From positions 1 to 64,000 of the forward strand of contig WGMB01000010.1 of the NCBI GenBank assembly GCA_016125275.1: DNA of 64,000 nucleotides. Direction: 5' to 3'. This DNA is from Acidobacteriota bacterium. GTDB taxonomy: Bacteria > Acidobacteriota > Terriglobia > Bryobacterales > UBA6623. The notes below the pieces were generated by a model. The model made no database searches. It saw only the letters and a program-made list of their open reading frames with translations, and was not told the origin of the DNA. The position numbers and the translations under genes are program-made. Positions 57,315 through 64,000 of this stretch are shown here, in pieces; position 1 is the first letter of the stretch; every line of letters begins with the position of its first letter.

Positions 57315-58064
57315 ATGCCTAGGTTCCTCCGCCTCACGGTGTTGGCCGTGGCGCTCTTGCCGACTCTGCGGCCCGAGCCCGCCCCGATTCCGCCGGAGCT
57401 CGATGAGCAGCACCGCCTGCTGATCGGCAACTTCCGCGGATGGCTGGCCGAAGTGGTGGAGATCGAGAAGCGTTTTCAAGGCAGTCTCGAAATCTCCACG
57501 GGTCCTTTCCTGGACCTGGGCAAGGTCGAGTTCATCGTGCGCCAGACCCGGTACTGGCCGCGCAAGTGGCTGCACCATCAAGACCACAACCTGATCTTCA
57601 GCGCCGTGCGCGGCCAGGATGAGGCCGAGCTCGAGCGCAATCTGCCGGCGATCATCAACTACGTCCAGTTGGCGACCGCGGCCCGCAACTATCACTTCAA
57701 GGCGCGGCACTCGCACCCCTTGGTGGGCAAGCTGACCGGGTTCGAAGAGGTCGAGGGCATCGCGCGGCGCGTCTACGACTTCCGCAACGAGCAGCTCGAC
57801 CTGATCCTGAACGGCAAGGTCGATCCCTCGCGCGTGCTCACCCGCGAGAACCTCGGCGAGCTCGGCGAGCCCAATCTGCTGCCGGAGCTGCGGCGCGCCT
57901 ATGGAGCGGGCCAGGATCAGGTCAGCAATCAGCGTAACGCCGTGGTGTTGGCCGTGCTGGCCGTCGAGATCGGCATCAGCTTCGGGATCGCGATGCTCTT
58001 CTTGCGCCGTCGGCGGCCGGCGACGGTGATCCGCCTCAGAGCCCAGCCGCAGACGGTCGGATGA
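57315..58064 (+). CDS. unknown exported membrane protein
   Basis: 249 aa, not recognised. N-terminal signal (LRLTVLAVALLPTLRP), then a mostly helical domain with a run of conserved-looking aromatic and His residues (YWPRKWLHHQDHNLIF, NYHFKARHSHPLVGKL). One C-terminal membrane helix (VVLAVLAVEIGISFGIAMLFL) is followed by a basic tail (RRRRPATVIRLR). The topology is a periplasmic domain held by a C-terminal anchor. The FAD oxidoreductase gene overlaps its stop (ATGATG), so the two are probably made together. Confidence 0.75.
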   Translation: MPRFLRLTVLAVALLPTLRPEPAPIPPELDEQHRLLIGNFRGWLAEVVEIEKRFQGSLEISTGPFLDLGKVEFIVRQTRYWPRKWLHHQDHNLIFSAVRGQDEAELERNLPAIINYVQLATAARNYHFKARHSHPLVGKLTGFEEVEGIARRVYDFRNEQLDLILNGKVDPSRVLTRENLGELGEPNLLPELRRAYGAGQDQVSNQRNAVVLAVLAVEIGISFGIAMLFLRRRRPATVIRLRAQPQTVG

Positions 58065-59740
58065 TGGTCTCCACCCGCCGGTCTTTTCTCGCTCTGCTGG
58101 CGGCCGCCTCGGGCCGCGCCGCCTCATCGGAAATCTCTTGCGACGTGGCGATCCTCGGCGGGGGCGTCGGAGGGACGGCGGCGGCCCTAGCGGCGCTCCG
58201 CCTGGGGATGTCGGTGACGCTGACCGAGACCACGGACTGGGTGGGCGGGCAGCTCACGTCCCAAGGCGTCCCGCCGGACGAGCATCCCTGGATCGAATCG
58301 TTCGGCTCCACCCGGCTCTACCGCGAGTACCGAAGCAAGGTCCGCGCCCGCTATCGGCGCGACTATCCGTTGACGGCCGAAGCGCGGGCTCATCCCGCTC
58401 TCAATCCCGGCAACGGTTCGGTCTCGCGGCTCACCCATGAGCCTCGCGTCTCGCTCGCCGTGCTGGAGTCGCTGCTGGCTCCTCACCTGGGAGGAGGCCG
58501 CTTGACCCTGCTGCTCGAGCACCACCCGGTCGCCGCCGACGTGGACGGCGATCGTGTGCGCGCCGTCCGCGTCCGCAGCCGGACGAGCGGGGCCCAGAAG
58601 ACCATTCGCGCGCAATACTTTCTGGACGCCACCGAGCTGGGCGACCTGCTGGCGATCGCCGGCGTGGAGCACGTCGTCGGCGCCGAAGCCCAGCGCGACA
58701 CCGGCGAACCCCACGCCCCGAGCCAGGCGCAGCCGGACAACCATCAGGCCTTCACGGTCTGCTTCGCCGTCTCCCACCACGCCGGCGAGGATCACTCCAT
58801 TGATCGGCCGGCCGACTACGCCTTCTGGCGAGACTACACGCCGCCGCTGCGCCCGCCCTGGCCGGGCAAGCTCCTCGCCTGGCCCTATTCCAACCCCGTC
58901 ACGCTCGAGCCGCGGGAGCTGTTCTTCGACCCCACGCTCCAGACCCGGCGCGAAGGCTCGCTGAATCTTTGGCTCTACCGTCGGATCGCCGACAAGCTCA
59001 ACTTCTTGCCGGGTTCCTATGCCGGCGACATCTGTCTGGTCAACTGGCCGCAGAACGACTACCTGCTCGGCAATCTCTTCGGAGGCTCCGACGGCGACGC
59101 CCTCCGGCATCTCGAAGCCGCCAAGCAGCTCAGCCTGAGCCTGCTCTACTGGATGCAAACCGCGGCGCCCCGCCCCGACGGCGGCGCCGGCTGGCCCGGG
59201 CTGCGCCTGCGCGGAGACGTGATGGGGACCGAGGACGGGCTGGCCAAGCATCCCTACGTGCGCGAATCGCGCCGCATCCGCGCCGAGGTCACGATCCTCG
59301 AGCAGCACGTGGGAACCGAAGCCCGCATGGCCGAGACCGGTCTGTCCCGTGAAGAGGTCGCCGCGGCGTCATATCCCGACTCGGTCGGCGTGGGCAGCTA
59401 TCGCCTCGACCTGCACCCCTCCACCGGCGGCGACAACTACATCGACGTCAGCTCCCTGCCCTTCCAGATCCCTCTCGGAGCCTTGTTGCCGGTCCGCATG
59501 GAGAACGTGCTGCCGGCGGCAAAGAACCTCGGCGTCACGCACATCACCAACGGCTGCTATCGCCTGCATCCGGTGGAATGGGGGATCGGCGAAGCCGCAG
59601 GCGCGCTGGCCGCCGAAGCGATCCGCACGCGGCAGTCCCCGCGGGCCATCCGCGCCGACGCCGGCCGCCTGCGGGACTTTCAGCGTTCCCTCGAGTCCCA
59701 GGGCTTCGAGCTGGCTTGGCCGCGCCTGACGCCTCGCTAG
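58061..59740 (+). CDS. Tat-exported FAD-dependent oxidoreductase
   Basis: 559 aa of the FAD_oxidored (PF12831) type. Tat signal TRRSFLALLAAASG, then the dinucleotide motif VAILGGGVGGTAAALAALRL with TLTETTDWVGGQLTSQG at the expected distance. FLDATELGDLLAIAG is a second family hallmark, and the C-terminal FAD contact is NVLPAAKNLGVTHITNG followed by EWGIGEAAGALA. Electron donor unknown. ATG 58061 overlaps the previous stop; ATG 58064 is equally possible. Converges on the helical-repeat gene with shared stop bases (CTAG). Confidence 0.9.
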   Translation: MMVSTRRSFLALLAAASGRAASSEISCDVAILGGGVGGTAAALAALRLGMSVTLTETTDWVGGQLTSQGVPPDEHPWIESFGSTRLYREYRSKVRARYRRDYPLTAEARAHPALNPGNGSVSRLTHEPRVSLAVLESLLAPHLGGGRLTLLLEHHPVAADVDGDRVRAVRVRSRTSGAQKTIRAQYFLDATELGDLLAIAGVEHVVGAEAQRDTGEPHAPSQAQPDNHQAFTVCFAVSHHAGEDHSIDRPADYAFWRDYTPPLRPPWPGKLLAWPYSNPVTLEPRELFFDPTLQTRREGSLNLWLYRRIADKLNFLPGSYAGDICLVNWPQNDYLLGNLFGGSDGDALRHLEAAKQLSLSLLYWMQTAAPRPDGGAGWPGLRLRGDVMGTEDGLAKHPYVRESRRIRAEVTILEQHVGTEARMAETGLSREEVAAASYPDSVGVGSYRLDLHPSTGGDNYIDVSSLPFQIPLGALLPVRMENVLPAAKNLGVTHITNGCYRLHPVEWGIGEAAGALAAEAIRTRQSPRAIRADAGRLRDFQRSLESQGFELAWPRLTPR

Positions 59741-62004
59741 CGCTCGAGCTCGCGCCGCGCCCGCCGCGCCCAATCGGTATTGCCGAATCGGAACTCCAGC
59801 AGCCGCAGGGGACGCTCCGGGTCGAACGACGGCCGCGGGTCATAGCCCCACTGCAGGTCGACGCCCTGGTAGCAGACCGTCAGCCGATACAGGGCCTCGG
59901 GGACGCCGGGGTCGGGCCTCGGGGCCCGCGCCTGCTCCTCGACCTCCCGCAGCAGCCAGTCGTAGGCGTCGCCGCGCTGCCGAATCGTCTCCCACTCCTT
60001 GCGCGCCTGCTCGCGCTGGGCGGCGTTCACAAAATCGGCGTCCTGGTCCGGCTCGGCGGGCTCCTCGGCCTCCACCCACCACCAGTTGAGACCGCGAGGA
60101 TCGGACTCCGACAAGGCCGCGGCGCGCAGCGGCCCCGACCACAGCTTTACGCTGAGGCCCGGCGTGCGCAACAGAGTCAAGATTCCGGCGAACCGCCGCG
60201 ATTCCGTCGGCGCTTCTGCAAAAGCGGTCATCTCTTCGAGCAGCGACGGCTCCAGACGCCCCAGCTCCGGGGCAATCTCCGCCGCCAGCCCCCACTGGTC
60301 CAACGCCGCCGCCCGAGCCCAAGCCGCGCCGAGCAGTTGCGCCTTCACTGGGTCCGGCAGCTCCGGTTGGCGCGGCAACAGCGCCAACGTGCGCACAGGG
60401 ACCTGCGTATTGAGCAGCCTCGCCGTCGCCGGCGTCAGCCGAAGCTGGTCCCGCGTGGAGTCCAGCCAGGCGCGCTGCCGCTCCGGAGTCCACTCGAACC
60501 ATTCCTCCTGACTCCGCCAGGGCGGATCGTAGACGTTGGGCTGGAAGTAGACCGAGGAGACCAACGCCGGTCGCCGCACGCCGTTGGCGAGGAAGTCCTT
60601 GAAGCCCCTCGCCCAGCGGGCCCGCAGGTCCGAGGCCCTGTTCTGCGCCGAAGGCAGCCCCTCCAGGCGCGGAATCAGCCGGTCCAACACACCTCGGGCC
60701 AGGTCGAGCTCGCCGCGTTCGGCCAGAATGCGGGCCTGGTGATAGAGCAAAGTCGGCGTCGCCGGGTGCTCGCCGATCTCCACGGCCTGGGTCAGCATCG
60801 CCGGCACATCGGGATGGTCGCCCGGAACCTTCGACAGGGCGGCGGTCAGCCAGGCCACCGAGCTCGTCTCCTTCCAGCGGGCCACGGCGTGGTCGGTCTC
60901 GGCCGGGTCGCCGGACTGGAACGCGAAAATCCAATCCACCAGGTCGTGAGCGGGCCGCAGCTCGGCGGTCGTCGACTCGTAGGCCGCGTCATCGAGCAGC
61001 TCGGTGAACAGGCGCAGTTGCCGCTTGCGGTTGGACTCGCCCAAGGGCGTCAGCAGCCGCGGGGCGAGCAAAGCGGCGGCGTCCGACGGCCGCAGCCGAA
61101 ACAGTATGCGGGCCAGCAGATAGCGCGCGGCGTCATGGGCCTCCCGCAGGCTGTCGTCGGCCAGCACAGCCCGGAAGTCCGCCTCCGCCAGGCGCAGCGC
61201 CGGGGAGTAAGCGTTGGAGCGCCCATCGAGGAAGCGCGCTTTCCACAGTTGGGCGCGCCCGGCCAAGTAGGTCCCCCAGACCCTCCAGGGCGAGTCTGCA
61301 TCTCGCGCAATGCGCTGGAAGGCCGCACGGGCTTCGTCGAAGCGCAGCGAATAGAACAGGGCGGCGGCGCGCTGGTAGTCTCGGTCGGCGCGAATCAGCG
61401 GATCGGCTCCGGCTACGACCGCCGGCGGCAGCACCTTTGCTTCGCGGTTGAAGCAGTTTTCGAACACGGCGTCCTGACCGATCACCCACTCCTGGAGCTG
61501 CGGGCTGTCGATACCGAACCGGTCCACCCGCTCCTGTAGAGTCTTCGTGGCGAGGTCGAAGGCGTCGTCGACGCACAGCAGGCTGTAGGTGAAATCAGAA
61601 GACATCCCCAGCGCAGGAGCCCCAGCGGCCGTCTGCGGCTGCCAGGGGATGCCCAGCGACTCCCGCAGCGCCACGTAGCGATCCGGCCCTCCGGTCGAGC
61701 GCGGCTCCTCCCCCAGCCGCTCGCGTACGTAATCCAGATAGGCCTGCCGCTCGCCCGGCGTGAACGCCACGTTCTCCATCCGGCGGTAGGCGGCGTACAG
61801 GTGCGAACGAGCCCAGCTCGGCTGGATCAAGCCCAGGTTGCCCGAGGCGAACTCCGCCAACGGCAGATCCGGGTGCTCGTCGAAGACGAAGATCGCCGTA
61901 GGGCGCAGATAATGCACCCCGCCGGAGGCCAACCCCGCCAGCGCGCAGGCGGCCAGAGTCAGTCGAGCGATGCGAGAACGGCGCGCCAATCCGAAGACGT
62001 CCAT
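59737..62004 (-). CDS. large helical-repeat membrane-anchored protein of unknown function
   Basis: 755 aa. N-terminal hydrophobic segment (IARLTLAACALAGLASGG), then about 700 residues of alpha-solenoid with TPR-like units: AAALFYSLRFDEARAAFQRI, TYLAGRAQLWKARFLDG, LLYHQARILAERGELDLARG. A Trp-rich patch lies near the C-terminus (GLNWWWVEAEEPAEPDQDAD). No catalytic motif seen. Probably periplasmic and a scaffold for protein contacts. The chosen ATG (62004) overlaps the DUF3142 gene by 46 nt; an in-frame ATG at 62049 would overlap more. Last gene of the four-gene operon. Confidence 0.78.
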   Translation of the reverse strand: MDVFGLARRSRIARLTLAACALAGLASGGVHYLRPTAIFVFDEHPDLPLAEFASGNLGLIQPSWARSHLYAAYRRMENVAFTPGERQAYLDYVRERLGEEPRSTGGPDRYVALRESLGIPWQPQTAAGAPALGMSSDFTYSLLCVDDAFDLATKTLQERVDRFGIDSPQLQEWVIGQDAVFENCFNREAKVLPPAVVAGADPLIRADRDYQRAAALFYSLRFDEARAAFQRIARDADSPWRVWGTYLAGRAQLWKARFLDGRSNAYSPALRLAEADFRAVLADDSLREAHDAARYLLARILFRLRPSDAAALLAPRLLTPLGESNRKRQLRLFTELLDDAAYESTTAELRPAHDLVDWIFAFQSGDPAETDHAVARWKETSSVAWLTAALSKVPGDHPDVPAMLTQAVEIGEHPATPTLLYHQARILAERGELDLARGVLDRLIPRLEGLPSAQNRASDLRARWARGFKDFLANGVRRPALVSSVYFQPNVYDPPWRSQEEWFEWTPERQRAWLDSTRDQLRLTPATARLLNTQVPVRTLALLPRQPELPDPVKAQLLGAAWARAAALDQWGLAAEIAPELGRLEPSLLEEMTAFAEAPTESRRFAGILTLLRTPGLSVKLWSGPLRAAALSESDPRGLNWWWVEAEEPAEPDQDADFVNAAQREQARKEWETIRQRGDAYDWLLREVEEQARAPRPDPGVPEALYRLTVCYQGVDLQWGYDPRPSFDPERPLRLLEFRFGNTDWARRARRELER

Positions 62005-62687
62005 GAGCGTGGGTGGAAGATGTAGAGCCGTTGGGCCTTTGGACGCCATCGTAGCGGCTCGTCCGTCGAAATCCCAACACTACCGCGGCAGGTCGGATCC
62101 GGGAACACCCCCTCGGCTTCGAGCCGACGCAGGTAGCCGCCCCCTTGCGGGCCCATCCGGAACAGCATCGGCACGACCTCGTCCACCGGCAGCTCGCCCA
62201 GCCAATCCCGTTCGAAGCACCAGGACGCCAGCGCCGTGATCGACAGCCGGGCGAAGCGCGGGCGCAGATCGGCTAGAAGCTCCCGATAGAACTCGCGCTG
62301 CGAGAGCGCGGCGTCGAAGTCCAACTGCAGGCCCTCGAAGGCCGGTCGCGCCGCCAGCTCTTCGATCCAGTCGACCGTCAGCGCCCGCTGGCCCGGCCCG
62401 AGGTCCGCGTCTGGGCGCGCCTCGATGCGAACGACGGCAGTGACCGGCGTTCCCGGCGTCACGTGCAATGGCCAAGCGCGCGGCTGCGCTCGGACTTGAT
62501 CGCCCTGCAAGCGCAGCGTCCCGATCAGCACGGCCACGCGGGCCTCTCCCGGCTCGAGGAACCGCAGGTCGTCGGGACGCTCCCACACCCACAGCGTCAG
62601 CTCGACGGGAGTCGGCTCGGCCCGGCAGCCCCAGAACAGGGCCGCCGCCGACAGCGCCGCCGCCCAGCTTCGTCGGAACCCGCTCAA
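61959..62687 (-). CDS. DUF3142-like lipoprotein
   Basis: 242 aa from a TTG at 62687 that overlaps the upstream stop (TTGA). The start gives a lipoprotein signal with lipobox FWGC. The mature protein begins VELTLWVWERPDDLRFLEP and has VAVLIGTLRL, GLQLDFDAALSQREFY, LSITALASWC and LPVDEVVPMLFRMG, which I recognise as DUF3142. The pattern of strands ending in acidic residues (LQLDFDA) and the long alpha/beta repeat suggest a TIM-barrel related to glycoside hydrolases. An in-frame ATG at 62729 lies inside the upstream gene and gives no better signal peptide. Confidence 0.75.
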   Translation of the reverse strand: MSGFRRSWAAALSAAALFWGCRAEPTPVELTLWVWERPDDLRFLEPGEARVAVLIGTLRLQGDQVRAQPRAWPLHVTPGTPVTAVVRIEARPDADLGPGQRALTVDWIEELAARPAFEGLQLDFDAALSQREFYRELLADLRPRFARLSITALASWCFERDWLGELPVDEVVPMLFRMGPQGGGYLRRLEAEGVFPDPTCRGSVGISTDEPLRWRPKAQRLYIFHPRSWTSSDWRAVLASLD

Positions 62688-63634
62688 TCCAGCTTCCGCA
62701 AGAAGGTCAACCGTCCGATCTCCACCCATTCGCCCACGAAGATGTTGCCCTCGTGGTCGAAGCAGGCCCCGTGAGGGCAGACGAACTGCCCGGGCAGAAA
62801 GTGCTCCCGGCTCATCAGGCGGCGCGCCCGATAGTCGGCTTGGCCTTGGCCCAGGTGCGCCAGCAGGCGATTGTCCTTGTCGAGCAGCGTGACCCGCGCC
62901 GCCAGGTCGGGGATCAGCAGGGTCCCGTCGGGGGCCTGATCAAAGTGGCAGGGCAGATCGACGTCGCCCGCCAAGGTCCGCAACGGCTCGCCGTCGAGCG
63001 AAAACCATTGCAACCGGTGGTTCGAGCGGTCGGCGACCAGCACCTCCTCGGCGCCGGACCGGCGGTCGATGGCGATGCCGTGAGGCACGTTGAGCTCGCC
63101 CCGCTGGTCCGTCTTCCCGCCCCCGAAGGTGTTCTTGTAGCGGCCGTGGCGATCCCAGACCACAACGAAGCTCGAGCCGTAGCCGTCGGCGACGTAGATG
63201 TCTCCGTTGGAGGCGACCGCCAGATTCGTCGGCTTCCAGACGGGCTCCCTGCCCTCGGCGGCGGCGTAGGCGGGAGACTCGCGGGGGTAGCCGAGCGTCA
63301 GAAGCACGTTCCCCGCCAGATCCGTCTTCTGGACGATCGAACGACGAATGTCGCAGAAGTACAGGAATTCGTCGGACCCTTCCCGCACGAGCTGCATTCC
63401 GTGGGCGCCGCCGGCGAACTGGCCCCCCCAAGAGGTCACGAAATCCCCGCCCGGGTCGAAGACCACCACCGCGTGATCGCTGGGCGAGTCGGAGTGCACG
63501 GTGTGGTGTACGTAGACCAGCCCGGCCCTGTCGACCTGCACCGAGTGGACGTTGCCCCAGCGGATGCGATCCGGCAGATCCCCCCAGTCGTGAGTCGCTT
63601 CGTAGCGGTAGGCGCCCTGGCCGACGACGATCAT
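62684..63634 (-). CDS. NHL-repeat beta-propeller protein
   Basis: 316 aa with about six NHL-type blades: VHSVQVDRAGLVYVHHT, PTNLAVASNGDIYVADGYG, PHGIAIDRRSGAEEVLVADR, PHGACFDHEGNIFVGEWVE. No signal peptide is visible from the ATG at 63634, so it is either cytoplasmic or exported without a classic signal. Similar propellers act as lyases (peptidyl-hydroxyglycine type) or binding proteins; no metal-site pattern was clear. Begins 2 bp after the sulfatase-like stop and overlaps the DUF3142 start. Confidence 0.85.
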   Translation of the reverse strand: MIVVGQGAYRYEATHDWGDLPDRIRWGNVHSVQVDRAGLVYVHHTVHSDSPSDHAVVVFDPGGDFVTSWGGQFAGGAHGMQLVREGSDEFLYFCDIRRSIVQKTDLAGNVLLTLGYPRESPAYAAAEGREPVWKPTNLAVASNGDIYVADGYGSSFVVVWDRHGRYKNTFGGGKTDQRGELNVPHGIAIDRRSGAEEVLVADRSNHRLQWFSLDGEPLRTLAGDVDLPCHFDQAPDGTLLIPDLAARVTLLDKDNRLLAHLGQGQADYRARRLMSREHFLPGQFVCPHGACFDHEGNIFVGEWVEIGRLTFLRKLD

Positions 63635-63636
63635 GT

Positions 63637-64000
63637 TCAGTTCTCCACCCGCACTTCTTCGCTGTCCTGCAAACCCAATCGTACGGCGTGCGCCCGCAGG
63701 GTCTGGCCGGCGGACAGCTTCACCGGCTGGGAGTAGACCAGCCAGCGCGCCTGCGGGGCGGCGTCGAGGGTGTAGGCGATCGAGGCTCCTTCGTCCGAGT
63801 GCAAGGCGACCGTGGCGCCGCCGCCCGGTTGGGCCCGTTTGGACGCGGTCGGCGGAGCGGTCCGCTCGACGCGATTCTCCGGATACATCGTCCTGTAGAG
63901 CTCCGGCTCGGGGATCAGTCCGTGGTCGTTGGTGCGCGCCATCCACTCCAGCAACTGGCCGCGCATGCTCTCCAGGCGGGCGGCGTAGGCCGGCTCTCCG
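63637..64000 (-). CDS. sulfatase-type enzyme, C-terminal part (runs off the window)
   Basis: The open frame continues past 64000, so only about 120 C-terminal residues are visible. The first part (RGQLLEWMARTNDHGLIPE, then PELYRTMYPENR) matches the end of the catalytic domain of heparan/N-sulfoglucosamine-type sulfatases. The last 60 residues (ATVALHSDEGASIAYTLDA, GQTLRAHAVRLGLQDSEEV) form a chitobiase/FN3-associated C-terminal domain often fused to such sulfatases. The active-site CxPxR lies outside. First gene seen of the minus-strand operon. Confidence 0.7.
   Translation of the reverse strand, partial: GEPAYAARLESMRGQLLEWMARTNDHGLIPEPELYRTMYPENRVERTAPPTASKRAQPGGGATVALHSDEGASIAYTLDAAPQARWLVYSQPVKLSAGQTLRAHAVRLGLQDSEEVRVEN

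Follow-up and report, generated by a model that had tools for sequence, protein, structure and literature searches.

A GH18-like DUF3142 protein and its solenoid neighbour as a candidate two-protein envelope module

Our analysis of an acidobacterial locus shows that its conserved unit is a pair of genes, one for a small DUF3142 protein and one for a large helical solenoid. We propose that the two products are halves of one envelope module, an anchored periplasmic hydrolase of GlcNAc-containing glycans and a solenoid dedicated to it, and we put the chance that this proposal is right at about even. It is supported by near-constant co-occurrence, mostly overlapping genes, a GH18-like model with an acid pair, and a helical partner. 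The pair lies near the end of the window, by which we mean the whole stretch analysed (64,000 nucleotides, positions 1 to 64,000 of contig WGMB01000010.1, assembly GCA_016125275.1).

Direct reading confirms that four minus-strand genes are closely packed here (Table 1), as the initial annotation described. The sulfatase and NHL propeller genes are separated by 2 nt, the propeller stop and the TTG start of the DUF3142 gene overlap as TTGA, and the DUF3142 and solenoid genes overlap by 46 nt. An in-frame ATG lies upstream at 62729, and the TTG start is thus not certain. The sulfatase and propeller calls also hold: the first passes Pfam Sulfatase (PF00884; 120.9 bits, cut-off 25) and carries, as judged by eye, a C-x-P-x-R motif, and the second scores 50 bits with Pfam NHL (cut-off 20). 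The DUF3142 protein of the window reaches 22.0 bits with Pfam DUF3142 (PF11340), under the cut-off of 30, and is therefore a distant relative; the solenoid matches no Pfam family above cut-off, with TPR models at E 0.18 and 0.24. The solenoid stop overlaps by 4 nt, tail to tail, the stop of a convergent FAD oxidoreductase gene. On the plus strand at 57315-58064, with the FAD oxidoreductase gene directly after it, is a gene for a 249-aa protein with no Pfam family, and upstream of the sulfatase, at contig positions 65318-65959 (L002 10319-10960), is a divergent gene whose product is PEP-CTERM-like by its C-terminal end.

Table 1. Features of the four-gene stretch (window positions unless marked as contig positions)
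Feature	Position	Strand	Description
Sulfatase	contig 63637-65205	-	522 aa; window holds C-terminal part 63637..64000
NHL propeller	62684..63634	-	316 aa
DUF3142 protein, GH18-like	61959..62687	-	242 aa, TTG start
Solenoid partner	59737..62004	-	755 aa, N-terminal hydrophobic helix
Asp123-Phe124-Asp125 of DUF3142 protein	62313..62321	-	position of GH18 catalytic D-x-E pair
Cys21 of DUF3142 protein, possible lipidation site	62625..62627	-	from sequence; loose lipobox FWGC at 18-21

Among 100 related genomes, including the one studied, 18 carry DUF3142, as 19 genes, 8 of a short kind that includes the window copy and 11 of a long kind. Wherever a short relative has room downstream, a solenoid homologue lies directly behind it (6 of 6, with that of L023 incomplete near a contig end); the contig of a seventh relative ends after DUF3142. 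When named genomes were scanned with the alignment of short DUF3142 proteins, 246 stretches were confirmed, and the best 80 by likeness to the window type were used. In this neighbourhood analysis, which the initial annotation had proposed, the two genes are linked in most genomes: the solenoid is the next ORF downstream in 62 of the best 80 of 246 loci, and in 56 of these its start, taken as the nearest start codon, overlaps the DUF3142 stop, mostly by 4 or 10 nt. Of the remaining loci, 14 are not adjacent, three are at a contig end, and at L090 the solenoid lies across a gap of N. Whole-genome searches of the 17 best-80 genomes without an adjacent solenoid found one elsewhere in 16, in some cases in pieces; in G311, where DUF3142 sits at a contig end, no solenoid was found in the genome. 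The hosts of the best 80 include many Acidobacteria together with Methylococcales, Caulobacter, Sphingomonas, Comamonas, Myxococcus xanthus, Nitrospira, Ignavibacteriae and others, and one record is titled Bacillota.

Three loci have an unusual layout. An apparent DUF3142-solenoid fusion in one frame at L090 was rejected because its junction is a run of N, and a 1493-aa open frame in G460 was rejected as mechanical, the genes being separate. At L166 (G150:C125, 8700-14550) a solenoid, a DUF3142 gene and a solenoid stand in a row, the last two genes overlapping by 4 nt, so that one enzyme gene is flanked by two partner copies.

The association extends to genomes in which the genes are apart. 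In 199 Acidobacteriota the solenoid occurs in 18 genomes, and 17 of these, the window's own among them, are exactly the genomes with a strong short DUF3142 (both in 16 of 198 without the centre genome, which was picked for having the pair). In 8 of these 17 the two genes are on different contigs or more than 100 kb apart. The corresponding Fisher value of 1e-23 ignores kinship, and it overstates independence because 7 of the 17 genomes come from one genus (g81). The eighteenth solenoid genome, G163, holds just fragments of a solenoid, all on a single contig, and lacks a DUF3142 match at E <= 0.01; two genomes with weak DUF3142 matches, G160 and G137, have no solenoid match. Protein distances of the two partners correlate across 51 loci (r 0.72, 0 of 1000 permutations), with shared species history contributing. 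DUF3142 matches at 1e-6 occur in 17 of 299 Pseudomonadota genomes (the phylum of G302). Four of the five with a window-type protein have the solenoid, adjacent in three and not adjacent in G302; G483, with a strong window-type DUF3142, has none at E <= 1e-10 in its genome and none adjacent. Taking all types together, a partner is present in 15 of the 17 genomes, or 14 of 16 without the centre genome. Plasmid-collection records of Sphingomonas changnyeongensis and Variovorax paradoxus also hold the window-type pair side by side; these two records are both of the plasmid-collection matches to the window query.

The assignment of the window protein to DUF3142 is secured by its relatives. When four other window-type proteins were scanned with Pfam, two passed (34.9 and 35.1 bits), one fell under the cut-off (28.3) and one was unmatched, one scanned member of the type that includes the chitinase TfeC passed with 51.7 bits, and a profile-profile comparison of the two types gave 97.5%. 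The initial annotation had called the protein a DUF3142 lipoprotein, of which the family stands and the lipoprotein part is softer: the N terminus is a hydrophobic stretch ending in a loose lipobox (FWGC), and among 80 aligned rows, many of them cut at the N terminus, 8 lipoboxes are canonical and 14 loose.

The DUF3142 protein models as a GH18-like (beta/alpha)8 barrel (AF2, 80 sequences, mean pLDDT 94.3). The best Foldseek match of this model is TfeC (9vtv, E 1.6e-7). In VIA, SleL (Z 14.8 over 211 residues) and TfeC (Z 14.7 over 181) are followed by GH18 chitinases, one of which also falls within Z 14.7-14.8, and Z ranges over 13-14.8 for SleL/YaaH, YdhD and the GH18 chitinases. The sequence profile likewise finds the TfeC entry 8y6t at E 1.9e-7, with YdhD and SleL next, near 1e-3, in weak matches that sit around the catalytic strand. 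DUF3142 thus shares a predicted fold with SleL/YaaH, YdhD and the GH18 chitinases, but differs from them in having mostly Asp for Glu, a single 242-aa domain and a dedicated solenoid.

The GH18 signature is DxxDxDxE, with Glu as the catalytic residue. The corresponding strand-4 motif of DUF3142 is Q-x-D-F-(D/E), QLDFDA in the window copy; Asp123 is present in 80 of 80 rows, and position 125 is Asp in 73 and Glu in 7. Because the motif departs from the strict signature, mostly with Asp in place of Glu, we call the protein GH18-like and not GH18, and the window protein has no match among the Glyco_hydro_18 Pfam models. The active sites of TIM barrels lie at or after strand ends, and each of the five residues invariant in the 80 rows, Trp33, Trp35, Arg70, Ser155 and Trp229, sits where a predicted strand ends or shortly beyond. 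The D-x-D pair also extends beyond the window type, to 11 of 11 TfeC-type, 11 of 11 long Bryobacterales and 3 of 3 type IV proteins checked (type labels I-IV were coined in this analysis).

The AF2 model of the window solenoid (50 sequences, mean pLDDT 88.4, pTM 0.86) is almost wholly helical, so the label ‘helical solenoid’ holds, while the hydrophobic N terminus that the initial annotation took for an anchor could be an anchor or a signal peptide. Foldseek returned nothing at E <= 0.001 for this model (best 4.1e-3, SprE of a type 9 system), and the best VIA match, Z 9.7 to 5ayw chain D over 132 residues, is within the helical background. Since no match rises above that background, we draw nothing from the fold search. 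In 35 of 50 solenoid rows a hydrophobic N terminus is followed by Cys-Gly-Pro (CGP), which we read from the sequence as a signal peptide and a mature Cys, and most relatives have a signal-like start; the window solenoid itself is without the CGP motif and without the aromatic C-terminal end. Solenoid partners span about 660-940 aa. The genome studied also has a second, short solenoid-like frame of 266 aa (G000:C14:810045-810296; profile positions 9-92, E 1.5e-16), perhaps a remnant or a short paralogue.

A second branch of the family pairs TfeC-type DUF3142 with a solenoid of the PA5441 type. TfeC (PDB 8y6t, 9vtv) is a DUF3142 protein deposited as a chitinase, and its structure entry is matched by the TfeC-type profile at E 3.7e-60. 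It belongs to the same domain family as the window protein, is its best profile and Foldseek match, and has the same D-F-D-A motif. TfeC is described in one review as a T6SS4-delivered antifungal effector of Yersinia pseudotuberculosis (PMC13162877) and is named in another (PMC13008689), whereas the N terminus of the window protein is itself hydrophobic and may contain a lipobox. In the TfeC-type loci that we read, a PA5441-type solenoid is directly beside DUF3142 in 15 of 15. These comprise nine loci of the Pseudomonadota sample (five first found via the solenoid), G831, G880, and four plasmid-collection records (Burkholderia pyrrocinia, Novosphingobium, Aeromonas caviae and Providencia rettgeri), these four being the ones read of 12 plasmid-collection matches to the TfeC-type query. 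In 321 genomes of the class of G371, solenoid and DUF3142 of these types occur in the same three, G371 among them, adjacent in each (2 of 2 in 320 without the centre genome). The record with the Providencia rettgeri pair (L170, AP025671.1) is a plasmid of 128 kb, on which genes for iron export and heme uptake lie close to the pair.

The solenoids of the two branches are distant homologues. Two PA5441-type solenoids score 940 and 1000 bits with the NCBIfam PA5441 model (NF053584, T4P_rel_PA5441; cut-off 300). The window solenoid reaches 15.6 bits, a weak but co-linear match, and the two families align with 97.0% and E 9e-11 over columns 145-344 in a profile-profile comparison. Both stand beside DUF3142, but the gene order is opposite, with solenoid before DUF3142 in the TfeC/PA5441-type branch. 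On the basis of a homology model of the C-terminal part, PA5441 is described as a putative type IV pili protein (PMC8516228), and it also appears in PMC7673450 and PMC5541441.

Other DUF3142 branches have large neighbours of other sequence. All 11 long DUF3142 genes of the Bryobacterales are directly followed by a gene for a secreted-looking partner of about 600 aa, whose sequence by eye begins like a signal peptide and has a Cys early on. This gene starts within 20 nt of the DUF3142 stop in 10 of 11 cases and 175 nt away in one; 6 of the 11 partners were seeds of the profile used, and the one at L032 is broken into two frames. Two members scanned gave one sub-threshold TPR match and none, respectively, and hhalign with the window-type and PA5441-type solenoid profiles gave below 1% probability. 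Of three Pseudomonadota genomes with a type IV (long) DUF3142, two encode next to it a protein of 732-757 aa that by eye starts like a signal peptide and carries a hydrophobic helix near its C terminus, and G467 has no adjacent partner. Of these two neighbours, both unmatched by the window-type and PA5441-type solenoid profiles, one passes Pfam TPR_2 (30.3 against a cut-off of 27) and the other matches nothing. We therefore do not claim one solenoid superfamily for all branches.

Could DUF3142 instead be a glycan binder that does not cut, and the pair an envelope or surface assembly factor, linked for example to type IV pili? The Asp that replaces the catalytic Glu in 73 of 80 rows is consistent with this, as are XIP-I and narbonin in the VIA list, which we take to be GH18-like non-enzymes. 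The NCBIfam name T4P_rel for the distant solenoid family and the description of PA5441 as a putative pilus protein (PMC8516228) point the same way. However, position 125 is acidic in all 80 rows and is the canonical Glu in 7, TfeC, deposited as a chitinase, shares the D-x-D pair, and of the neighbours inspected by eye, only partly annotated, none was recognisable as a pilus gene. We consider a non-cutting DUF3142 protein doubtful.

In the hydrolase module that we propose, the DUF3142 protein would be held at the membrane by a lipid or a transmembrane helix, facing the periplasm. There it would cut a GlcNAc-containing polymer, most likely peptidoglycan, or else a chitin-like or surface glycan. 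The solenoid would bind it and set where or when cutting occurs, as a scaffold or a brake. Several observations count against this proposal: the departure from the GH18 signature and from the Glyco_hydro_18 models, the lack of a fold match for the solenoid, the missing CGP motif and aromatic C-terminal end of the window solenoid, the exceptions G483, G311, G467, G160 and G137, and the effector role given to TfeC (PMC13162877), which is a different use of the same domain.

That same effector role, and the rarity of DUF3142 without a solenoid in our samples (G483 and G311 for the window type), would also fit an antidote: the solenoid might be a periplasmic inhibitor that keeps a wall-cutting GH18-like enzyme from harming its producer. 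A partner of about 660-940 aa is large for an inhibitor, and many of the window-type enzymes bear their own lipobox or hydrophobic N terminus. We think it unlikely that the solenoid is an antidote.

The initial annotation had gone further and joined all four genes into one candidate glycan-desulfation system. At E <= 1e-5 neither the window sulfatase nor the window NHL protein matches anything in 83 distinct loci of the DUF3142-solenoid pair, drawn from 7 relatives' loci and the 80 named loci (median flank about 7.9 kb in the 80); the window's own contig was found as a positive control. NHL relatives (E <= 1e-20) occur in 83 of 100 related genomes, and at 19 of 19 NHL loci among the matches listed, window excluded, there is no DUF3142 or solenoid within about 1.5 kb. 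A same-strand sulfatase is within that distance in 2 of the 19, three of which are cut short. Because the pair loci lack sulfatase and NHL and the NHL loci lack the pair, the conserved unit is DUF3142 plus solenoid, and the sulfatase and NHL genes are local neighbours outside it, which may simply happen to precede the pair and may share its transcript. By eye the NHL protein has no signal peptide, which would place it in another compartment than the secreted-looking sulfatase, and the likeness of the DUF3142 protein to GlcNAc hydrolases (GH18) offers no link to desulfation. A real four-gene system for sulfated glycans, special to this lineage, would account for the tight spacing of all four genes and suit a sulfatase with 120.9 bits and a C-x-P-x-R motif by eye, but given the 83 pair loci without relatives of either protein and the 19 listed NHL loci without the pair, only two with a same-strand sulfatase, it is very improbable.

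Other neighbours recur within single lineages. In Methylococcales, DUF3142 follows a tamB-like gene in 6 of 7 loci, with a tamA-like gene before it in 4. At L051, L058, L078, L091, L092 and L105, DUF3142 is at the 3' end of an apparent tamA-tamB operon and the solenoid is elsewhere in the genome. In five acidobacterial loci DUF3142 follows a lipA-like gene. Clustering of neighbours in the best 80 of 246 loci showed no recurrence of tamB-like or lipA-like genes outside their own lineages, and for this reason we draw no function from them.

A hydrolase-like envelope protein with a helical-repeat partner is a known kind of arrangement, of which DUF3142 and its solenoid would be a variant: in the exopolysaccharide exporters PgaB/PgaA and PelA/PelB, a hydrolase-like envelope protein works with a TPR protein. 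Neighbour clustering of the best 80 loci, judged by eye, brought out neither a synthase nor an export porin that repeatedly accompanies the pair, and in one Burkholderia record an annotated porin adjoins the pair on the other strand. In the literature searched we found no paper that describes the pair or joins TfeC and PA5441, none that combines GH18, tetratricopeptide and lipoprotein, no mention of PDB id 8Y6T, and DUF3142 only in a cluster list. The pair is apparently undescribed, while TfeC and PA5441 are each already in print. The initial annotation's view of a little-explained coupled unit is thus borne out for DUF3142 and the solenoid, and not for all four genes.

Taken together, these observations suggest, with equal chances of holding or failing, that DUF3142 is family-wide the catalytic half of a two-protein envelope machine in which each branch has its own large secreted partner. 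The partners would belong to no fewer than two sequence families, probably to more, be encoded by an adjacent or overlapping gene, and be helical, by model in the window type and by assumption in the others. If so, TfeC and the PA5441 protein would belong to the two halves of the same module, and two separate literature threads, TfeC as a T6SS effector and PA5441 as a pilus-related protein, would be joined. For a domain of unknown function, the analysis supplies a predicted fold, a likely chemistry and a partner that is nearly always present, in a pair that spans Acidobacteriota, Pseudomonadota, Myxococcota and other, mostly Gram-negative groups. From the pairing we expect the DUF3142 protein and the solenoid to bind to each other, and the loss of one gene or the other to affect a single pathway.
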